Positions 1,786-10,442 of a stretch of 10,670 nucleotides of DNA are shown here, one piece after another (the first letter of the stretch is position 1; every line of letters begins with the position of its first letter). Under the pieces are notes generated by a model. It did no database searches. It was not told the DNA's origin and was given only the letters and a program-made list of their open reading frames with translations. The stretch is from CAVPRW01 sp046727435 [NCBI: bacterium]. GTDB lineage: Bacteria > Tectomicrobia > Entotheonellia > J063. The stretch lies in assembly GCA_046727435.1 (NCBI GenBank), contig JBKPCR010000432.1, forward strand, positions 1 through 10,670, given 5' to 3'. The position numbers and the translations under genes were made by a program.

Positions 1786-4326
1786 ATGCGTCCCTATGAT
1801 GTGGGGTCGGCGGGGGATCCCGCCGCGGTGGAACCTCCACGTGTCGAAGTACGTGGGAAATTTTTGTGGTCTGGTGCAACTAAATTTTTCATGCGTGGTG
1901 TCTCGTATGGTCCCTTTCAACCGGATGCCATGGGTAGCCCGTTTCCCAGCATGGAGCAAATCAACCAAGACCTGGCGCTGATGCGACAGGCGGGCATCAA
2001 CACCATCCGCACTTACAACGTGCCGCCGCAACGCTTGCTCGATCTCGCGTTGCAGTGGAATATTCATGTATTGGTCGGCATTCCCTGGGAGCAGCATATT
2101 TGCTTCCTCGACGACCGCCAGACGGCGCGCAACATCCGTGCCGCCGTCTCGCGTGCGGTGCGCTTCTGTAACGGGCATCCCAGCATCCTTGCCTACTTCA
2201 TCGGCAATGAAATCCCGTCGCCGATCGTGCGCTGGCACGGCCACAAGAAGGTGAGCCAGTTCCTGGCGCAGCTCTATGAGACCGCCAAAGCCATCGATCC
2301 GCTCACCCTGGCGACTTACGCCAACTATCCGCCAACCGAGTATTTACAGACCGACTTCGCCGACTTCTACGCCTTTAATCTCTATCTCCACGCTGAACCC
2401 GCCTATCGCCGTTATGTCGCGCGACTGCACAACCTGGCTGGCGACAAACCCCTGGTGTTGAGCGAGTTTGGCATGGATGCCATCCGCTCCGGCGAAGACT
2501 ATCAAGCTGACACGCTGGCCTGGCAAGTACGCACCGCGTTCGAGATGGGCGCCGCCGGCACGGTGGTGTTCACCTGGACGGATGATTGGTTCACCGGCGG
2601 CTATCAGATCACCGACTGGGCCTTTGGCCTGGTGCGTGGCGATCGGACGCCACGGAAGGCCTATGTGGCGGTGCAAGGAGCCTATCAAGCCCCATGTCCA
2701 CCCTTGCCCGAGGATGCCCCGAAAATCTCCGTCGTGGTGTGTGCGTACAATGCCGAGCCAACGATGCGCGACTGCCTGGAGTCACTGACTAAACTCTCGT
2801 ATCCCCGCTATGAGGCGGTGATCGTCGACGACGGCTCGACCGACCGCACCGGCGCTATCGCCGATGAGTACCCTCAGTTCAAGATCATTCATCAGCCGAA
2901 TCGCGGTCTCAGTGCGGCTCGCAACGTTGGCATGGCGGCCGCGACAGGCGACATCATCGCCTACCTCGATTCGGATGCCATGGCCGATCCAGATTGGCTC
3001 ACCTATCTGGCCTGGAAGTTCAAGCGCACCGACCACGTCGGCGTCGGCGGACCGAATCTGCCGCCTCCAGAGGAGGGTTGGCTGGCCAACTGCGTGGCCT
3101 CGTCGCCCGGCTCACCGACGCATATTTTGCTCGACGATGACACCGCCGAACACATCCCAGGCTGTAATATGGCGTTCCGCAAAGATGCGCTGGCTGAGAT
3201 CGGCGGCTTTGATACGACCTACACGGCGGCGGGTGATGATGTCGACATTTGCTGGCGTTTGCAGGAACGCGGCCATCGCATCGGCTTCAGTCCAGCCGCC
3301 ATCGTGTGGCACCACCGGCGCAAGACCATCAAGTCCTATCTGAAGCAACAGATGGGCTATGGCAAGGCTGAAGCCATGCTCCTCCAGAAGCATCCGGATC
3401 GGTTTAACGCGGTCGGCTGCGCCAGATGGGCTGGACGCATCTACGGCGGCATCCGCACTGGCCTGTCAACCGCCAAGGGGTTTATCTACTATGGCCCATT
3501 CGGGTCCGGCTTGTTTCAGCGTGTGTATCATGCCCCACACTCCTGGCTGGCTGACCTGCCTCTGTCGCTGGAATGGAATATCCTCACGGTGCTGTTGCTG
3601 CTGGGGGGATTCCTTTCGCCCCTGTTGTGGATTCTGGGTGGCCTAAGCGGCATGGCGTCGGCGTGGGCGGTCGTGCAACAGACGATGCTGACGGACGTCC
3701 CCGTGACGCACCATCGTCGGCTGGGCAAACTCCTCGTGGGGGCACTGCACTATATTCAGCCACTGGCACGCGGTTGGGCTCGCGTCAAGCGCGTTTGGCA
3801 GCAGCAACCACGCGCCACTCGCTGGCCGGGTTTCTTCCAGCGCTTTCCGTGGGGGACTTGGAGGCCGCGGGTGATGCTGTCGTTTTGGACGGAAGACGGG
3901 ATTGAAAAAGATGCCATCCTCCAATCTCTGATCCAGCAATTGCGTGAGGGCGGCTATCCGACACTGCACGACTCGGGTTGGAAGCCTTGGGATCTAGCCA
4001 TCGACGAACATCTGTGGTCACGCATTCCCATTGAGGTCCTCGTCGAAAACCATGGCGGGTCAAAGCGCCTGGCCCGCTTCAGGCTCTCCTGGCATTTGGC
4101 CCCGATCGCCAAGGCGATCCTCTGGACGTGCGGCGTTTTCCTGGTCCTTGGGATGCTGGAATCCAAGGCATGGCTGGTCGTCGTGGCAGGTGTTGCCGCT
4201 CTGGCCGGCTTCTCGTGGGTGACGTTCAAGAGTGGGTCGGCTATCCAAGAGTTGAGCCAGATGATTAGAGATGTGGCAACCAGGTTGAAGCTCTTACCGA
4301 TCAATGGCACACATAAAAGGGCTTGA
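1786..4326 (+). CDS. Clan GH-A glycosidase-like TIM barrel fused to a family 2 glycosyltransferase, membrane-anchored
   Basis: This 846-residue, two-enzyme protein probably builds and trims or transfers sugar chains at the inner membrane. Residues about 20-300 look like a complete clan GH-A barrel (GH2/GH5-like). The acid/base glutamate is in GNEIP (N141, E142) and the nucleophile in LSEFG (E227); the last strand is GTVVFTWTDDW (258-268). Residues about 312-540 form a GT2 domain with VVVCAYN (316-322), VDDGS (347-351), the metal-binding DSD (395-397), the GDDVD acceptor-base motif (483-487) and QQMGYG (521-526). Hydrophobic stretches follow at about 597-631 and 773-813, flanking a soluble region of about 140 residues. 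No signal peptide or transmembrane segment precedes or separates the two catalytic domains. ATG 1786 is preceded by GGAGG 13 bases upstream (1768-1772) and by an in-frame TAG at 1756, which fixes the start. The domain calls are firm; substrate and product are unknown. Cyclic or linear beta-glucan synthases with fused glycosidase domains are a possible analogy only. Confidence 0.9.
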   Translation: MRPYDVGSAGDPAAVEPPRVEVRGKFLWSGATKFFMRGVSYGPFQPDAMGSPFPSMEQINQDLALMRQAGINTIRTYNVPPQRLLDLALQWNIHVLVGIPWEQHICFLDDRQTARNIRAAVSRAVRFCNGHPSILAYFIGNEIPSPIVRWHGHKKVSQFLAQLYETAKAIDPLTLATYANYPPTEYLQTDFADFYAFNLYLHAEPAYRRYVARLHNLAGDKPLVLSEFGMDAIRSGEDYQADTLAWQVRTAFEMGAAGTVVFTWTDDWFTGGYQITDWAFGLVRGDRTPRKAYVAVQGAYQAPCPPLPEDAPKISVVVCAYNAEPTMRDCLESLTKLSYPRYEAVIVDDGSTDRTGAIADEYPQFKIIHQPNRGLSAARNVGMAAATGDIIAYLDSDAMADPDWLTYLAWKFKRTDHVGVGGPNLPPPEEGWLANCVASSPGSPTHILLDDDTAEHIPGCNMAFRKDALAEIGGFDTTYTAAGDDVDICWRLQERGHRIGFSPAAIVWHHRRKTIKSYLKQQMGYGKAEAMLLQKHPDRFNAVGCARWAGRIYGGIRTGLSTAKGFIYYGPFGSGLFQRVYHAPHSWLADLPLSLEWNILTVLLLLGGFLSPLLWILGGLSGMASAWAVVQQTMLTDVPVTHHRRLGKLLVGALHYIQPLARGWARVKRVWQQQPRATRWPGFFQRFPWGTWRPRVMLSFWTEDGIEKDAILQSLIQQLREGGYPTLHDSGWKPWDLAIDEHLWSRIPIEVLVENHGGSKRLARFRLSWHLAPIAKAILWTCGVFLVLGMLESKAWLVVVAGVAALAGFSWVTFKSGSAIQELSQMIRDVATRLKLLPINGTHKRA

Positions 4327-4339
4327 GACGCTGAGCCAA

Positions 4340-4389
4340 GTTGCGCGGAGAGTGGTGGCGTCTGCGCCTTCGTGCACTGTTGCGCGAAG
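4340..4389. repeat. Short imperfect direct repeat, GTTGCGCGGAG / GTTGCGCGAAG
   Basis: Copies at 4340-4350 and 4379-4389 match at 10 of 11 bases and are 39 bases apart, in the gap before the ABC exporter gene. They could be an operator half-site pair or chance. No partner copy was noticed elsewhere in the window. Confidence 0.25.
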
Positions 4390-4407
4390 CCTCACACATA
4401 TAGAACA

Positions 4408-6252
4408 ATGGATATGACGAACGTACGACCTCATATCAGTGCACTTGGCTTATGCTTGCGCGTCATGGCCTATTTTCGCGCCCACTGGCAACTCCTCAGC
4501 GTCGGCCTGCTTTTGACTGGGCTTGGAATCGGTACCGAACTGCTCAAGCCCTGGCCGCTGAAGTTCATCATCGATGCGGTCCTGGTCGACGAATCCCCAG
4601 GTTCCGGGATGGATCAGGCGATCCTGGCCATTCTCGGGGGGGAGAAATCAACCCTGCTCGCTGCCCTCTGCGCTGGCATTCTAGTCGTGTATCTGAGCGC
4701 CGGCACGCTGAATCTGGTGAGCAAGTATTTGCTCGTGAAGGTGAGCTTGCGTGTGCTGACGCAGCTACGCTGCGATCTGTTTCGACACCTACAGCGTCTG
4801 TCGTTGCGCTTTCACGACCGGAATCGCATCGGTGACTCGCTCTATACGCTCAATACCAACGTCTACGCCGTCCAAGGCATCTTTTGCGACGGCTTCGTTC
4901 CCGTCCTGGAGGCGAGCGTCACCGTGATCGGCATGGTAGCGATCATGCTAGGCATGGATTGGCAGCTCACCTTGCTTTCGATCGCCACCGTGCCGGTGCA
5001 GGTGCTGGTCACCAAATACTATGCCGATCGGATTCGCCAGGCCTCGAGCGATTTCCACTCGGCTGAAGGACATGTCAGCGCCTCAGCCGAGGGCACCTTA
5101 TCGTCGGTGCGCTTAGTGCAAGCCTTCGCCCGCGAGGACTACGAAGCCGAAAAATTCTCCCGCAAGTGCCAGCAAAGCTACTCCTCCAACCTACGATTGA
5201 CCATGACCCAACTGTGGTCAGGGGTGGTGGTGAGCGGGGTCACCGCCGGAAGCCTCGGCGGTGTGACCTATGTCGGAGCCTCGCACGCGCTCAGCGGCCA
5301 GATCTCCACCGGCGAACTGCTGGTTTTCCTGGCCTACCTGCAAATGTTATACACACCCTTGCAGACTCTGAGCTATTCGTCATGGTCTGTGGGCTGGGCG
5401 GTCGCCGGGGCGCAGCGGGTCTTCGAGATCCTAGATACGCCGGAGGATATTCGTGACATGCCCGGGGCGGTGGCGTTGAAGCGGGTCTATGGTGCCATCG
5501 AATTTCGTGATGTGGGATTCGCCTATGGCCCAGATCGCCCGGTGTTTTCGCATTTGAGCTTCACGGTAAACGCTGGTGAGACGGTGGCGATCGTCGGTAC
5601 CAGCGGCGTCGGCAAGACGACTTTGCTGAGCCTGATCCTACGTTTTTACGATCCGACGGCGGGGGCAATCCTCCTTGATGGCATCGATATTCGCACCATG
5701 AAGGTGCAGAGCCTGCGCGAACAGATTAGCATCGTGCTCCAAGACCCCATCTTATTGGGATCGACGATCCAGGAGAATATCGCCTATGGTCAGCTCACCG
5801 CCTCGTTTGAGGCAATCGTCGAGGCCGCCAAGGCGGCGGGGGCACATGAGTTTATCATGCGTTTCCCCGACGGCTACGACTCGGAGGTCGGTGAGCGCGG
5901 TGTCCGACTATCTGTTGGGCAACGGCAGCGCATCGCCATCGCCCGTGCCTTCCTGAAGGATGCCCCACTCTTGATTCTCGATGAACCGACTTCGGCGTTG
6001 GACCTGAGGAGTGAGGCTACTGTGGTGGACAGCCTCGAACGCCTGATGCATGGACGTACGACCTTTGTCGTCACCCATCGACTCTCTCTGGCACGCCAAG
6101 CCTCGAAGGTCATTGCGTTGAACTCGGAATCGTTGCAGATCGCCGATTCGGTCGATGATCTCCTCCGACATGGAGCTCTCTATCAAGAGGTCTACGATCT
6201 TAGTCAGTCTCCCGAGCCCAGCCTAATGGTGGAATATCCCCCATCAACGTGA
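4408..6252 (+). CDS. ABC exporter, fused permease and ATPase (MsbA/NdvA-like half-transporter)
   Basis: This 614-residue half-transporter would dimerise to flip or export a lipid-linked or oligosaccharide product. About six membrane segments are visible (roughly 29-46, 83-104, 164-183, 187-204, 269-290, 302-321), followed by a nucleotide-binding domain. That domain has Walker A GTSGVGKT (397-404), a Q-loop glutamine (445), signature LSVGQ (501-505, with V in place of the usual first G), Walker B LLILDE (521-526) and the switch histidine in VTHR (557). All catalytic residues are present, so it should be active. The start is uncertain. ATG 4408, ATG 4414 and GTG 4372 are all in frame and none has a good Shine-Dalgarno site. 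ATG 4408 is chosen because the 12 extra residues from GTG 4372 (including CC) look unlike a normal transporter N-terminus. It lies 81 bases after the glycosyltransferase fusion, which suggests it exports that enzyme's product. Type IV ABC exporters also carry drugs and peptides, so the cargo is inferred from context. Confidence 0.92.
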   Translation: MDMTNVRPHISALGLCLRVMAYFRAHWQLLSVGLLLTGLGIGTELLKPWPLKFIIDAVLVDESPGSGMDQAILAILGGEKSTLLAALCAGILVVYLSAGTLNLVSKYLLVKVSLRVLTQLRCDLFRHLQRLSLRFHDRNRIGDSLYTLNTNVYAVQGIFCDGFVPVLEASVTVIGMVAIMLGMDWQLTLLSIATVPVQVLVTKYYADRIRQASSDFHSAEGHVSASAEGTLSSVRLVQAFAREDYEAEKFSRKCQQSYSSNLRLTMTQLWSGVVVSGVTAGSLGGVTYVGASHALSGQISTGELLVFLAYLQMLYTPLQTLSYSSWSVGWAVAGAQRVFEILDTPEDIRDMPGAVALKRVYGAIEFRDVGFAYGPDRPVFSHLSFTVNAGETVAIVGTSGVGKTTLLSLILRFYDPTAGAILLDGIDIRTMKVQSLREQISIVLQDPILLGSTIQENIAYGQLTASFEAIVEAAKAAGAHEFIMRFPDGYDSEVGERGVRLSVGQRQRIAIARAFLKDAPLLILDEPTSALDLRSEATVVDSLERLMHGRTTFVVTHRLSLARQASKVIALNSESLQIADSVDDLLRHGALYQEVYDLSQSPEPSLMVEYPPST

Positions 6253-6489: not shown

Positions 6490-7218
6490 ATGCTACGTAT
6501 CCCGGACTTGGCGGATCCCCGCTATCTGGATGAAGTCGGTTGGTTCCTCTACCACGAGCGATATGAGCGCCATCAATTCGGTGGCTCGTATGACGACGAA
6601 CGGCGACAATACTCGCACCTGCTCTTGGAAGAAGTGCTCGGCTACTGCGGTCAAGACCAGGTGTGGTTGGCAGATAAAGCCGTCGTAAGCGTCGGTTGTG
6701 GGTGCACCGGTGATCTAGCTGCCTGGCCGGCAGCGAGTAAGATCGCTGTTGACCCATTGCTGTATACCTATCAGAAGTTAGGGATGCTCATCGAAGATAT
6801 CGACGGCACGACTTGCACGGTGCATTTGGCAATGGGAGTTGAGGAACTCCCATTACTGGATGAGTGTGCACATCTTGTCATCTGCCGCAATGCCTTGGAT
6901 CATATGCCGGATCCGGCGAAGGCCTTGCAACAGATATGGAGGATTCTCAAAGCGGAAGGGATGCTATTTCTGAGCGTGGATCTTGGCGGCTTCGCCACTC
7001 CAGATGAGCCAACGGTTTTCTCGGCCGAGAGCCTTGTCGCTCTCCTGCTACAGGAACAGTTTGAGATCGTCAGACACACGGGTGACGATCTGCCTCACAG
7101 CGCGTGGCGCCCCTGTAGTAGGCGCATTCTGGCGCGGAAGAAATCACAAGCGGGTGTGACACTTGATCGGGAAGAGATCCTCCAGGCATATATGGCGCGG
7201 CTCGGCGAGCAGGGGTGA
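6490..7218 (+). CDS. Class I SAM-dependent methyltransferase
   Basis: This soluble 242-residue protein transfers a methyl group from S-adenosylmethionine. Residues 65-76 form motif I (VVSVGCGCTGDL, the glycine-rich SAM loop). An acidic residue ends strand 2 (D88, in IAVDP), as expected for ribose binding. The LPLLDECAHLVICRN strand-4 region and the DHMPDPAKAL helix (137-146) match Methyltransf_11-type enzymes. The glycine loop is unusual in having two cysteines (VGCGC). There is no signal peptide or membrane segment. ATG 6490 has GAGGTG at 6479-6484, five bases upstream. It lies between the exporter and two glycosyltransferase-like genes, so a sugar O-methyltransferase role is plausible but inferred. 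The family is secure; the acceptor is unknown. Confidence 0.88.
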   Translation: MLRIPDLADPRYLDEVGWFLYHERYERHQFGGSYDDERRQYSHLLLEEVLGYCGQDQVWLADKAVVSVGCGCTGDLAAWPAASKIAVDPLLYTYQKLGMLIEDIDGTTCTVHLAMGVEELPLLDECAHLVICRNALDHMPDPAKALQQIWRILKAEGMLFLSVDLGGFATPDEPTVFSAESLVALLLQEQFEIVRHTGDDLPHSAWRPCSRRILARKKSQAGVTLDREEILQAYMARLGEQG

Positions 7219-7258: not shown

Positions 7259-8416
7259 ATGACTTCGCGACTTCGCATCATCGTGACAGGGCTTATCGCC
7301 CAGTACCCTCTTGGCGGGGTGACGTGGGACTATTTTCAGTATGTCCTCGGCCTCGCGCAGCTCGGCCATGAGGTATACTATGTCGAGGACACCGGACAAT
7401 GGCCTTATAATCCAGCCGAGGGCGGCATAGGCAAAGGCTGTGACTTCAACGTCGGATACCTCTCTGGCATCATGTCACGTTACGGGCTGGCCGAGCAATG
7501 GGCTTACCGGTTTCCATGGCAATCCCAGTGGTTTGGGCTTTCCGACTCGACCCGCCACGAGGTGATCCAATCGGCTGATCTGCTCATCAATATCTCTGGC
7601 ACCATCGAGCGGCCCGAAGAGTATCGGCAGGTAGGCCGACTGGCCTATATCGACTCCGATCCGCTCTTCACGCAGGTGAAGCTGGCGCGGGGGCAGCTCG
7701 ATTTCCGCAAATGGATCGATCTCCATGATGTCCAGTTCAGTTTCGGGGAATGTTTGTCTTCGGCCGTGCCTGAGACCGGCCACCAGTGGCGCCCGACACG
7801 GCAACCGATCGTACTGTCGGAGTGGCGCCCGGAAACACCCCATCGTGAGGTCTTCACCACCGTGATGAACTGGACGAGTTACAAGCCCGTGGTATACGGC
7901 AATCAGAGCTATGGCCAAAAAGATGTCGAGTTCATGCGGTTCCAGGAGTTGCCGAGTCTCGTGGCCCCGACGGTACTGGAGATCGCCGTCAATGCCGGAA
8001 AAACCCGACGCACCCCACGCCAATTGTTAGCGCACAAGGGATGGCGCGTGGTCGATCCGGCGCAGGTCTGTCCCGATCTCGACACTTATCGCCAGTACAT
8101 CGAGTCCTCGAAGGCAGAGTGGAGCGTCGCCAAAAATGGCTACGTCTTGGGCCAGCCCGGTTGGTTCAGTTGCCGTTCGGCATGCTATCTGGCGGCTGGC
8201 AGGCCTGTTGCGGTCCAGGATACGGGTTTCAGCGCCGTGCTGCCGGTAGGCGAAGGGCTCCTGACATTCACGACGGTGGAGGGGGCAGTCGCAGCGATCA
8301 ATGAGATCGAAGCAAACTATGCACGACATGCTAAAACGGCGCGCGCGCTTGCAGAGGAATATTTCGATGCGGCGAAAGTGCTGGACCAGCTGATCGATGA
8401 AGCACTGCAGGCTTGA
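7259..8416 (+). CDS. GT-B-fold glycosyltransferase-like protein, first of a tandem pair
   Basis: This 385-residue cytosolic protein resembles GT4/GT1-type glycosyltransferases. The N-terminus has a Rossmann-like strand (LRIIVTGLIAQYPLGG, 5-20) and a helix leading into LGHEVYYVEDTG (35-46). The C-terminal half has GWFSCRSACYLAAGRPVAVQ (301-320) followed by DTGF (321-324). That block resembles the R..YLA.G.PV..Q.TG segment of GT-B enzymes that faces the nucleotide sugar. A terminal helix carries EEYFDAAKVL (366-375). The ATG at 7259 is preferred over an upstream in-frame GTG at 7163, which would overlap the methyltransferase by 56 bases and add a low-complexity tail. GGGGGA (7245-7250) is suitably spaced before 7259. 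The gap after the methyltransferase is 40 bases, so co-transcription is likely. The fold call is by motif; donor, acceptor and linkage are unknown. Confidence 0.75.
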   Translation: MTSRLRIIVTGLIAQYPLGGVTWDYFQYVLGLAQLGHEVYYVEDTGQWPYNPAEGGIGKGCDFNVGYLSGIMSRYGLAEQWAYRFPWQSQWFGLSDSTRHEVIQSADLLINISGTIERPEEYRQVGRLAYIDSDPLFTQVKLARGQLDFRKWIDLHDVQFSFGECLSSAVPETGHQWRPTRQPIVLSEWRPETPHREVFTTVMNWTSYKPVVYGNQSYGQKDVEFMRFQELPSLVAPTVLEIAVNAGKTRRTPRQLLAHKGWRVVDPAQVCPDLDTYRQYIESSKAEWSVAKNGYVLGQPGWFSCRSACYLAAGRPVAVQDTGFSAVLPVGEGLLTFTTVEGAVAAINEIEANYARHAKTARALAEEYFDAAKVLDQLIDEALQA

Positions 8417-8480: not shown

Positions 8481-9647
8481 ATGGACGTGACGAAGTCGAA
8501 AGTCATCGTGGTGTTAGGGATTATGGGAATCATGCCGGTGGCGGGTACTGGTGTGGCCTGGAACACCATCCAGCATCTCATGGGGCTACGCCGCCTGGGA
8601 TACGAAGTCTACTATGTGGAAGCAACCGGTGTGTGGCCTTTTAACGCCACTACCGACGATTGCACTTTTCCGGTGACTTACATCAGCAGCTTGCTGAACC
8701 ATTTTGGCTTCCAAGATCGATGGGCCTATGTCGCCGCCCACAGCGACGGTCGCTGCTATGGCTTGTCGGCGCTGCAAGTTCAAAAGCTGTATGCTCGCGC
8801 CGATGCCATCGTCAATCTGTTCGGGGGGACGATGCTGCGCGACGAGCACATGATATGCCCGATACGAATCTACCTTGAAACCGACCCTGTGGTACATCAG
8901 CTTCGGATTGCCAATGGTGAACAACGCTACATCGATCTGGTTGGCGCACATACAGCACTGTTTACCTGGGGAGCAAACTACGGTGCGCCAGATTGTAGTG
9001 TGCCGGTGGCACCTTTCACATACAAACCGACCCGCTCTCCCGTGATGCTCGAATATTGGGATGCCCCCTGCAATCCAGCGGCCAGGTATTTCACGACAGT
9101 TGGCCATTGGGATCAGTCGGTCAAAGACCTGGAATACAACGGCGAACGTTACTCCTGGAGTAAGCACCGCGAGTTCTTGAAGATCCTCGATCTGCCACGC
9201 TGTACGAGTCAGGAGTTTTCTCTGGCCCTGGCCATCGATGATCCAGCGGCCGTGCAGATGCTCGAAGGTTACGGCTGGCATGTGGAAGATGCCTATACAG
9301 CCTCGAAGACCCTGGAGAGCTATCGGAAATATATCTGGGGTTCGCGCGGCGAGCTCACGGTCGCCAAGGATATGAACGTGCGCTTGCGCAGTGGTTGGTT
9401 CAGTGAGCGCAGCGCCTGCTATCTCGCCGCAGGCAAGCCGGTGGTGACCCAGGAGACGGGGTTTAGCAAGTCGCTCCCTACCGGCCTGGGATTGTATGCG
9501 TTTCGCACGCTAGAAGATATCCCGCCCGCCATTGAGGCGATCAACAGTGACTACCAGAAACATGCCCAAGCTGCCAAGGAAATTGCCGCGGAATACTTCG
9601 ATGCTAAGAAGGTGCTGCGACAGGTGATGCGCGAGGCAGGGGTGTAG
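8481..9647 (+). CDS. GT-B-fold glycosyltransferase-like protein, second of a tandem pair
   Basis: This 388-residue protein is a clear paralogue of the gene just upstream. Shared blocks in the same order are LGYEVYYVEATGVWPFN (39-55), WAY (81-83), a TRSPVMLEYWD segment (184-194), YRKYI (281-285), LTVAK (292-296), SGWFSERSACYLAAGKPVVT (304-323) and EYFDAKKVL (371-379). The N-terminal loop (GIMGIMPVAGTGVAW, 13-27) and the central region differ strongly, suggesting a different donor or acceptor. There is no signal peptide or membrane segment. ATG 8481 has AGAGGA at 8468-8473, seven bases upstream. The gap after the first paralogue is 64 bases, and the next gene starts 15 bases after the stop. A cytosolic sugar transferase acting on the same glycan is the likeliest role; direct evidence is limited to the C-terminal motif. 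Confidence 0.75.
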   Translation: MDVTKSKVIVVLGIMGIMPVAGTGVAWNTIQHLMGLRRLGYEVYYVEATGVWPFNATTDDCTFPVTYISSLLNHFGFQDRWAYVAAHSDGRCYGLSALQVQKLYARADAIVNLFGGTMLRDEHMICPIRIYLETDPVVHQLRIANGEQRYIDLVGAHTALFTWGANYGAPDCSVPVAPFTYKPTRSPVMLEYWDAPCNPAARYFTTVGHWDQSVKDLEYNGERYSWSKHREFLKILDLPRCTSQEFSLALAIDDPAAVQMLEGYGWHVEDAYTASKTLESYRKYIWGSRGELTVAKDMNVRLRSGWFSERSACYLAAGKPVVTQETGFSKSLPTGLGLYAFRTLEDIPPAIEAINSDYQKHAQAAKEIAAEYFDAKKVLRQVMREAGV

Positions 9648-9662: not shown

Positions 9663-10442
9663 GTGCTGGCACACGTGTCCAATGGTGTGGGCGTGGCGTC
9701 GATGGTTTCGACCAAATATCTCATCGTGAACGCGGATGATTTTGGCCAAAGTTTCGGGGTCAATCGTGGCATCATCAAGGCCTATCGTTGTGGCATCGTC
9801 ACCAGCGCGAGTTTGATGGTGCGCTGGCCGGGTGCCGCTGAGGCGTCGGCATATGCCCGGGAACATCCAAGCCTTAGTCTTGGGCTGCATGTCGATCTGG
9901 GTGAAAAAGTCTTTCGTGCGGGAGACTGGGTCCCCCTGTATGCGGTGGTGCCGATGCAGGATACCACCGCCATTCGCGATGAAATATCCCACCAACTGGA
10001 TGTGTTCCATCACCTCATGGGCCATGATCCCAGTCATCTCGATTCCCACCAGCACGTCCATCTGCGGGAACCGGTGCGCACCATTCTCATCGAGGTGGCT
10101 CAGCGGCTTGGGATTCCGCTCCGACAGTGCGCGGCGGAGATTGGCTATCGCGGCAGCTTCTACGGACAAACCGCGGAAGGTGCGCCCTTGCCCAACGTAA
10201 TCAGCGTCGAAGGACTGATTCACATCCTGGAGACGTTGCCAGCGGGGTACACGGAGCTGGGCTGCCATCCAGCGGAACACTGCGACCTGGACACCATGTA
10301 TCGCCTCGAGCGTCTGAAGGAACTCAGAGTTTTGTGTGATCCACAAGTGAGGGCCGCGATCACGGCTATGGGGATCGAGTTGTGTTCGTTTACCAGCTTC
10401 CCCAATGGACACGAGCGGTCCGTATGCAATACACCCGCGTAG
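9663..10442 (+). CDS. YdjC/ChbG-family carbohydrate deacetylase (HpnK-like)
   Basis: This family removes acetyl groups from N-acetylated sugars, for example chitooligosaccharides (ChbG) or an acetylglucosaminyl hopanoid (HpnK). It uses a divalent metal in an alpha/beta barrel. The 259-residue protein shows the hallmark LIVNADDFG (20-28, with D25 and D26), GLHVDLG (74-80), DSHQHVH (127-133) with the metal-binding histidines, and a late TELGCHP motif (197-203). The length is normal and no key motif is missing. No signal peptide is seen, so it should act in the cytosol. GTG 9663 is chosen because of the strong GGAGG before it. The gap from the preceding glycosyltransferase-like gene is only 15 bases, implying co-translation. 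In context it may deacetylate an N-acetylhexosamine in the glycan being built. No hopanoid genes are nearby, so HpnK function is not assigned. Confidence 0.9.
   Translation: MLAHVSNGVGVASMVSTKYLIVNADDFGQSFGVNRGIIKAYRCGIVTSASLMVRWPGAAEASAYAREHPSLSLGLHVDLGEKVFRAGDWVPLYAVVPMQDTTAIRDEISHQLDVFHHLMGHDPSHLDSHQHVHLREPVRTILIEVAQRLGIPLRQCAAEIGYRGSFYGQTAEGAPLPNVISVEGLIHILETLPAGYTELGCHPAEHCDLDTMYRLERLKELRVLCDPQVRAAITAMGIELCSFTSFPNGHERSVCNTPA

Follow-up and report, generated by a model that had tools for sequence, protein, structure and literature searches.

The cyclic glucan synthase Cgs is served by a partner ATP-binding cassette (ABC) exporter, ChvA/NdvA. In the part of the account of the Agrobacterium enzyme drawn on here (PMC10901819), Cgs is a GT84 glycosyltransferase (GT) that also carries cyclase and GH94 domains, and all of its soluble domains are cytoplasmic. 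Pseudomonad NdvB is a GH17-GT2 protein whose glycoside hydrolase (GH) domain is modelled in the periplasm and joined via a membrane region to the GT2 domain, according to the section of PMC10237404 that treats it. Here we describe a protein that combines the domain type of pseudomonad NdvB with the predicted topology of Cgs. It is encoded at positions 1786 to 4326 (+ strand) of a 10,670-nucleotide stretch (the window) of contig JBKPCR010000432.1 from the tectomicrobial genome CAVPRW01 sp046727435, and its 846 amino acids join an N-terminal clan GH-A (beta/alpha)8 barrel to a GT2 domain. We propose, with moderate confidence, that this fusion is a membrane-associated cytosolic synthase whose barrel edits the glycan of its own GT2 partner, by trimming or transglycosylation, prior to export. 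The two domains are predicted to share a compartment, and we infer that they act on the same glycan.

Like Cgs, as far as the source covers that enzyme, the fusion unites a glycosyltransferase and glycan processing in one membrane protein with cytoplasmic soluble domains (predicted, in the case of the fusion). By analogy, and within the same coverage, Cgs is a mechanistic precedent for GT and processing domains all lying in the cytosol. The two proteins differ in that the processing domain of the fusion is an N-terminal GH-A barrel, in that the GT part of the fusion matches GT2 models whereas Cgs belongs to GT84, and in scale, the GH94 part of Cgs beginning at residue 1536 in that partial account. 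No GH94-type model was present among the eight Pfam families matched by the window or among the NCBIfam matches listed (25 of 29). With pseudomonad NdvB, or the BcsA-like orphan, the fusion shares a triosephosphate isomerase (TIM)-barrel glycosidase placed N-terminal to a GT2 domain; it differs from NdvB in having no membrane segment between the domains and no GH17 among the eight Pfam families. The initial annotation had cited NdvB-type beta-glucan synthases as precedents. That label covers two unlike systems, one with a GH17 modelled in the periplasm and the other, as far as the sources go, with a cytoplasmic GH94 domain. Full-text literature searches, with most subscription papers outside them, found a cytosolic GH-A/GT2 fusion in no title or abstract among those listed.

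The occurrence of a GH-A barrel and a GT2 domain in one polypeptide, noted in the initial annotation, is confirmed, and by Pfam, the structure model and the alignment both domains are apparently intact. The barrel spans residues about 20-305 (positions 1843 to 2700, + strand) and matches PF02836 (Glyco_hydro_2_C) at residues 20-244 with an E-value of 1.4e-11 and 44.6 bits (cut-off 21). The GT2 domain, residues about 312-540 (positions 2719 to 3405, + strand), matches PF00535 (Glycos_transf_2) at residues 315-472 with an E-value of 6.7e-37 and 127.4 bits, above the curated cut-off of 23.3, and holds the Asp motifs D, DxD and a second DD/ED as D349, D395xD397 and DD484-485, followed by QQMGYG at residues 521-526. 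An AlphaFold2 model of the fusion, built from 25 sequences, has a predicted local distance difference test (pLDDT) score of 77.6 and a predicted TM-score of 0.73; in the barrel, residues 265-275 fall below a pLDDT of 50. The eight barrel strands of the model comprise residues 36-40, 73-76, 94-98, 134-141, 175-180, 195-198, 223-228 and 258-261. E142 (codon 2209-2211, + strand) lies just past strand 4 and E227 (codon 2464-2466, + strand) inside strand 7. Since clan GH-A enzymes carry their acid/base glutamate after strand 4 and their nucleophile glutamate at strand 7, both residues occupy canonical positions. Pfam, the model and matches to solved structures agree on a retaining-type clan GH-A barrel with its two glutamates, an assignment that applies to sequence and fold.

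The best match of the barrel among solved structures is LaGH157, the GH157 endo-beta-1,3-glucanase of Labilibaculum antarcticum (Z 29.2, root mean square deviation 2.8 over 289 residues). GH2 enzymes follow from Z 28.6 downward, which amounts to a tie between GH157 and GH2. Identity to LaGH157 is about 20%, and only the barrel of its 537-residue solved chain matches. In the sequence alignment E227 pairs with E224 of LaGH157, which is replaced by alanine in structure 9g4n (E224A). The pairing of E142 and E227 as catalytic residues, put forward from the sequence at the outset, is thus upheld by the strand positions, this alignment and conservation in all 25 aligned members. From the strand positions and the LaGH157 match we infer that both glutamates face one pocket. 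Regarding the substrate, the closest solved relatives (GH157 and GH2) would point to a glycan with beta linkages. Linear beta-1,3-glucan is hydrolysed by one GH157 enzyme, as stated in the part of PMC10229575 drawn on here; by analogy this activity gives only a hint of the barrel substrate, and a glucan is a possible identity for the glycan.

Relatives of the fusion are widespread but sparse. A scan of genome contigs under named records gave 24 loci with a fusion relative out of 33 pattern matches, assigned by record title to Binatia, Deltaproteobacteria, Alphaproteobacteria, Acidobacteria, Nitrospiraceae, Chloroflexi, Verrucomicrobia and Candidatus Eisenbacteria, with identities to the window protein of 36-49%. 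In samples of genomes searched at an E-value of 1e-150, matches occurred in 5 of 198 genomes for the phylum of genome G001, 22 of 297 for that of G007, 19 of 240 for that of G011, 2 of 198 for that of G008 and 7 of 201 for that of G010, and in 4 of 148 in the G002 sample, which overlaps that of G001; the genomes that served as seeds are part of these tallies, and some few of the matches span the alignment only partly. Whole-genome searches of the host genomes returned a match in 15 of 15, and more than one in some (G004, G011 and G013).

Across this family both active sites are strongly conserved. Among the 25 aligned members, E142, E227 and N198 are present in all, N141 and W264 in 24 and R75 in 23 (one L, and one missing through a truncated sequence), while D349, D395 and D397 of the GT2 domain occur in 25 of 25. 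In a larger set of 52 distinct genes (71 sequences including that of the window, less 19 duplicates of the same gene), D349, D395 and D397 are found in 52, DD484-485 in 51 and both catalytic glutamates in 50. The two exceptions to the glutamate pair are locus L054, with a decayed barrel, and L063, a partial sequence that is not counted as barrel-less. For ten close pairs, the ratio of nonsynonymous to synonymous substitution rates (dN/dS) is 0.032-0.210 in the barrel and 0.026-0.098 in the GT2 domain, which indicates that the barrel is under purifying selection; taken with the active-site conservation, these values argue that it is retained as an enzyme. On average the members are 46% identical in the barrel and 56% in the GT2 domain. 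Pairwise distances in the two domains correlate with an r of 0.89 over 1128 pairs (computed without L054, L063, L028 and L024, the last of which ends at a contig end); both domains have therefore travelled together.

The predicted cytosolic placement of the barrel follows from the distribution of hydrophobic segments. The ATG of the reading frame is the first ATG, GTG or TTG after the in-frame stop upstream, so under those start codons there is no longer version that could carry a signal peptide. Using a threshold of 1.6 on the Kyte-Doolittle scale over 19 residues, no segment was found in the 25 aligned members from the N-terminus through the GT2 domain, the maximum in this region being 1.54 (L018) among the members and 0.91 in the window protein. 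The sole high value ahead of the GT2 domain is 1.68 in L070, at the start of an in-frame upstream extension that was added in extracting the sequence and precedes the conserved N-terminus. The initial annotation had seen neither signal peptide nor membrane segment ahead of the barrel or in the stretch that links it to the GT2 domain, and had named a hidden segment in that stretch as the finding that would overturn its reading; such a segment was looked for and none was found. An exported glycosidase is rejected on the same grounds. In 20 of the 25 members, two to four segments exceed the threshold, all C-terminal to the GT2 domain. The other five (L019-L023), all verrucomicrobial, have no such segment anywhere, which supports a cytosolic barrel; some verrucomicrobial members, L020 and L022 among them, measure about 695 amino acids and lack any predicted membrane segment.

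In the window protein the segments above threshold are residues 593-611, 773-791 and 796-814, all past the GT2 domain. They belong to two hydrophobic hairpins, at residues about 593-634 (positions 3562 to 3687, + strand) and about 773-833 (positions 4102 to 4284, + strand; model and hydrophobicity). The second half of the first hairpin is derived from the model helix 612-634 and from other members. In 44 members, the hairpin loops contain 7.1 and 4.0 Lys and Arg per 100 residues against 9.3, 18.2, 22.6 and 16.7 in the flanks, in agreement with the positive-inside rule. Between the hairpins lies a small C-terminal domain (residues about 690-770, positions 3853 to 4095, + strand; alignment and separate fold), in which D736 and E754 are invariant in 25 of 25 aligned members, and which is retained in shortened form even by members without membrane segments. 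Modelled separately it reaches a pLDDT of 82.5, and a Foldseek search of the PDB returned no match at an E-value of 0.001 (best 0.11); several weak rows were START/Bet v 1-type entries, which were not used as evidence. Most simply, the barrel, the GT2 domain and the C-terminal domain are all predicted to be cytosolic. For the barrel, the segment-free approach to the GT2 domain, the five segment-free homologues and the positive-inside fit make the cytosolic location claimed at the outset probable. The hairpins, the C-terminal domain and the gene cluster described below had been missed by that earlier annotation.

Among NCBIfam models the GT2 domain best matches the mycofactocin glycosyltransferase MftF (TIGR03965, residues 306-562, E-value 2.4e-52), but the 178.4 bits of this match lie under the model cut-off of 280 and the fusion is not classed as MftF. 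In the parts of PMC7491314 drawn on here, MftF decorates mycofactocin with as many as nine beta-1,4-glucoses, and the Mycobacterium smegmatis protein has 470 amino acids compared with 846 for the fusion. A mycofactocin radical SAM protein above cut-off was found in none of 25 relatives' genomes, some of them incomplete, but also in none of 14 control genomes, leaving the search with no positive control; the best match in the relatives was 178.9 bits against a cut-off of 265, and 24 of the 25 genomes had matches below it. A link to mycofactocin is therefore not supported, within the limits of a search that had no positive control.

Downstream of the fusion, all on the + strand, the window encodes an MsbA-like ABC exporter whose membrane and ATPase parts form a single chain (4372 to 6252; PF00664 and PF00005), a methyltransferase-like protein (6490 to 7218; PF08241, E-value 4.1e-10), two glycosyltransferase-like paralogues, GTx1 (7259 to 8416) and GTx2 (8481 to 9647), that are 36% identical by sequence comparison, and a YdjC/chitin-disaccharide-deacetylase-like protein (9663 to 10442; PF04794, E-value 8.1e-48). 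An amidohydrolase lies upstream at 23-1528. The exporter scores 437.8 bits with the NCBIfam MsbA model (cut-off 602) and 362 bits with the glucan exporter PRK13657 (cut-off 733). Gene counts at 44 other loci rest on tblastn, with exporter matches accepted from 150 bits and GTx matches from 80 bits; dropping four loci with less than 2 kb downstream (L009, L012, L018 and L020) left 40. In 25 of the 40 an exporter follows the fusion on its strand within 2.1 kb, in two (L014 and L058) it lies farther away, and a same-strand GTx gene lies downstream in 20. Weaker exporter-like matches near L019 (83.6 bits) and L063 were not counted. In each of four further loci, GTx is present and an exporter lies no more than 0.5 kb from the fusion, on its upstream side in L080.

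Other neighbours were surveyed by running 30 selected proteins against Pfam. Near the fusion were polysaccharide deacetylases (L056, L010), a PIG-L deacetylase (L060), methyltransferases (L057, L060, L014), hexapeptide transferases (L057), a sulfotransferase as well as a weak match to a pyruvyl transferase (L015), ATP-grasp and APH-type proteins (L008) and epimerases (L013, L052), and GT4-type proteins adjoin the fusion in L059 and L060. YdjC relatives occur in 3 of 48 loci (L056, L078 and L080), and the recurring deacetylases may hint at amino sugars. No relative of the window amidohydrolase (80 bits) or methyltransferase (60 bits) was found near the fusion in the 44 loci. The picture suggested by these neighbourhoods is of a glycan built and decorated in the cytosol and then exported. 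With an exporter and glycan-modifying genes alongside, an ordinary extracellular hydrolase is unlikely, as the initial annotation had argued.

In the proposed mechanism, the GT2 domain would lengthen an acceptor-borne oligosaccharide on the cytosolic side of the membrane, and the barrel would cut the GT2-made glycan. The cut end might be passed to water, giving trimming, or to another sugar, giving transglycosylation, branching or ring closure, and the finished, decorated glycan would leave via the ABC protein. Transglycosylase, cyclase, chain-length editor and release domain are not separable by sequence and fold. A more specific version, which we consider unlikely, is a cytosolic system that evolved independently of cyclic glucan synthase as its counterpart, in which the barrel would close or re-link the beta-linked GT2 product by intramolecular transglycosylation before decoration and export through a dedicated MsbA-like transporter, in several phyla; we know of no glycan of such a kind in these phyla. 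If the editing reading is true, it would mean a widespread, undescribed coupling of glycan synthesis and editing inside the cell ahead of export, in host groups whose surface and secreted glycans are little known. The recurrence of the design in several distant bacterial groups suggests an uncharacterised build-and-edit glycan machine, and with both active sites on one 846-residue protein, self-editing of the GT product is directly testable.

Several observations weigh against intracellular editing before export. The passage on BcsA-type processive synthases in PMC10237404 gives Q(Q/R)xxRW as their motif; the QQMGYG of the fusion lacks the RW, so the GT2 domain may add few sugars, which fits limited extension as in MftF. 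At 13 of the 40 loci, ten of them verrucomicrobial, there is no above-threshold same-strand match to exporter or GTx, and the export context is therefore not universal. All four segments exceed the threshold in only three of the 20 segment-bearing members (L004, L009 and L018); the even number of crossings is taken from the helices of the model and from the members considered together. Homologues were recruited with whole-protein or whole-alignment queries, a bias against barrel-less members. Lastly, L054 is a second gene copy that keeps the GT2 Asp motifs while its barrel has decayed.

Among the alternatives, the barrel could be a plain hydrolase for quality control or turnover, removing stalled or wrong chains or degrading a cytosolic glycan, with the fusion only keeping it near the synthase. 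Its nearest solved relatives, LaGH157 and the GH2 glucuronidases and galacturonidases, are hydrolytic, as is the described GH157 activity (PMC10229575, in the part drawn on), and we regard this explanation as possible while leaning against it; a weak Pfam match to GH72 glucanosyltransferases, of 31.3 bits (cut-off 25.9) over residues 20-143 and thus part of the barrel only, leans toward transfer. It is very doubtful that the barrel has no catalytic function and serves GT2 as a binding or scaffolding module by holding its acceptor. The presence of the decayed L054 beside the intact L053 in one genome would suit such a role, but the two glutamates persist in nearly all distinct genes despite a mean barrel identity of about 46%, and the remaining GH-A active-site set is nearly invariant.

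A role before or beside the GT2 domain, in which the barrel cuts or transfers a pre-made glycan to supply the primer for GT2 extension, or loads the product onto a carrier such as a lipid, strikes us as quite unlikely. An MsbA-like exporter and hydrophobic hairpins would suit a lipid-linked product, and MftF, the nearest curated GT, extends a small-molecule acceptor in the sections of PMC7491314 considered, yet no acceptor or carrier gene is conspicuous among the 30 selected neighbour proteins annotated. The chance that the fusion arose through misassembly, or as a recent functionless accident, is negligible. The named records of the 24-locus scan are all titled metagenome-assembled genome (MAG), but the same join recurs in the 24 loci and in further genomes, four times on contigs of 2.2 to 3.8 Mb (L045, L047, L048 and L049), and this recurrence refutes the artefact reading; purifying selection also speaks against it.

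Beyond these points, the verrucomicrobial loci often lack exporter and GTx and have other neighbours, so the pathway is not uniform: a class III aminotransferase adjoins the fusion in L011 and L064, the latter also with a GT87-like gene, and a queuosine gene adjoins that of L020. The GTx paralogues, of about 385 amino acids, often occur several to a cluster (the window, L004, L006, L007, L010, L014 and L024). GTx1, whose frame is open from 7163 with the start at 7259 preferred by the gene call, has only a sub-cut-off match to PF13524 (18.6 bits, cut-off 25); GTx2 matches no Pfam family, and neither has an NCBIfam match. They probably represent an undescribed GT-B-like family; four PDB sequences at E-values of 0.079-0.097 were taken as chance, and GTx was not accepted as a solved family. 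In L010, a GTx1 relative at 14312-15233, split over two matches, is 68-76% identical to the window GTx1 compared with 44% for the fusion, which suggests that GTx genes have been exchanged or that the source lineage is a related one.

A plasmid origin was discarded: the matches to 13 plasmid records take in 26-32% of the query, near the GT2 domain, and none covers 80%. An apparently barrel-less member in the phylum of G010 (L078, 7302-9724) proved to be a complete fusion broken across two reading frames, and the in-frame stops in the L048, L049 and L050 matches are the final codon, that is, the normal end. The L007 record is titled as a Klebsiella pneumoniae MAG; its cluster is the same as in the Binatia and Deltaproteobacteria loci, and the label is probably wrong. 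In L062, an open frame of 1259 amino acids (7718-11497, - strand) has a C-terminal extension resembling a repeat propeller, which by eye looks NHL-like, and several other matches in the sample from the phylum of G007 have frames of 1275-1344 amino acids.

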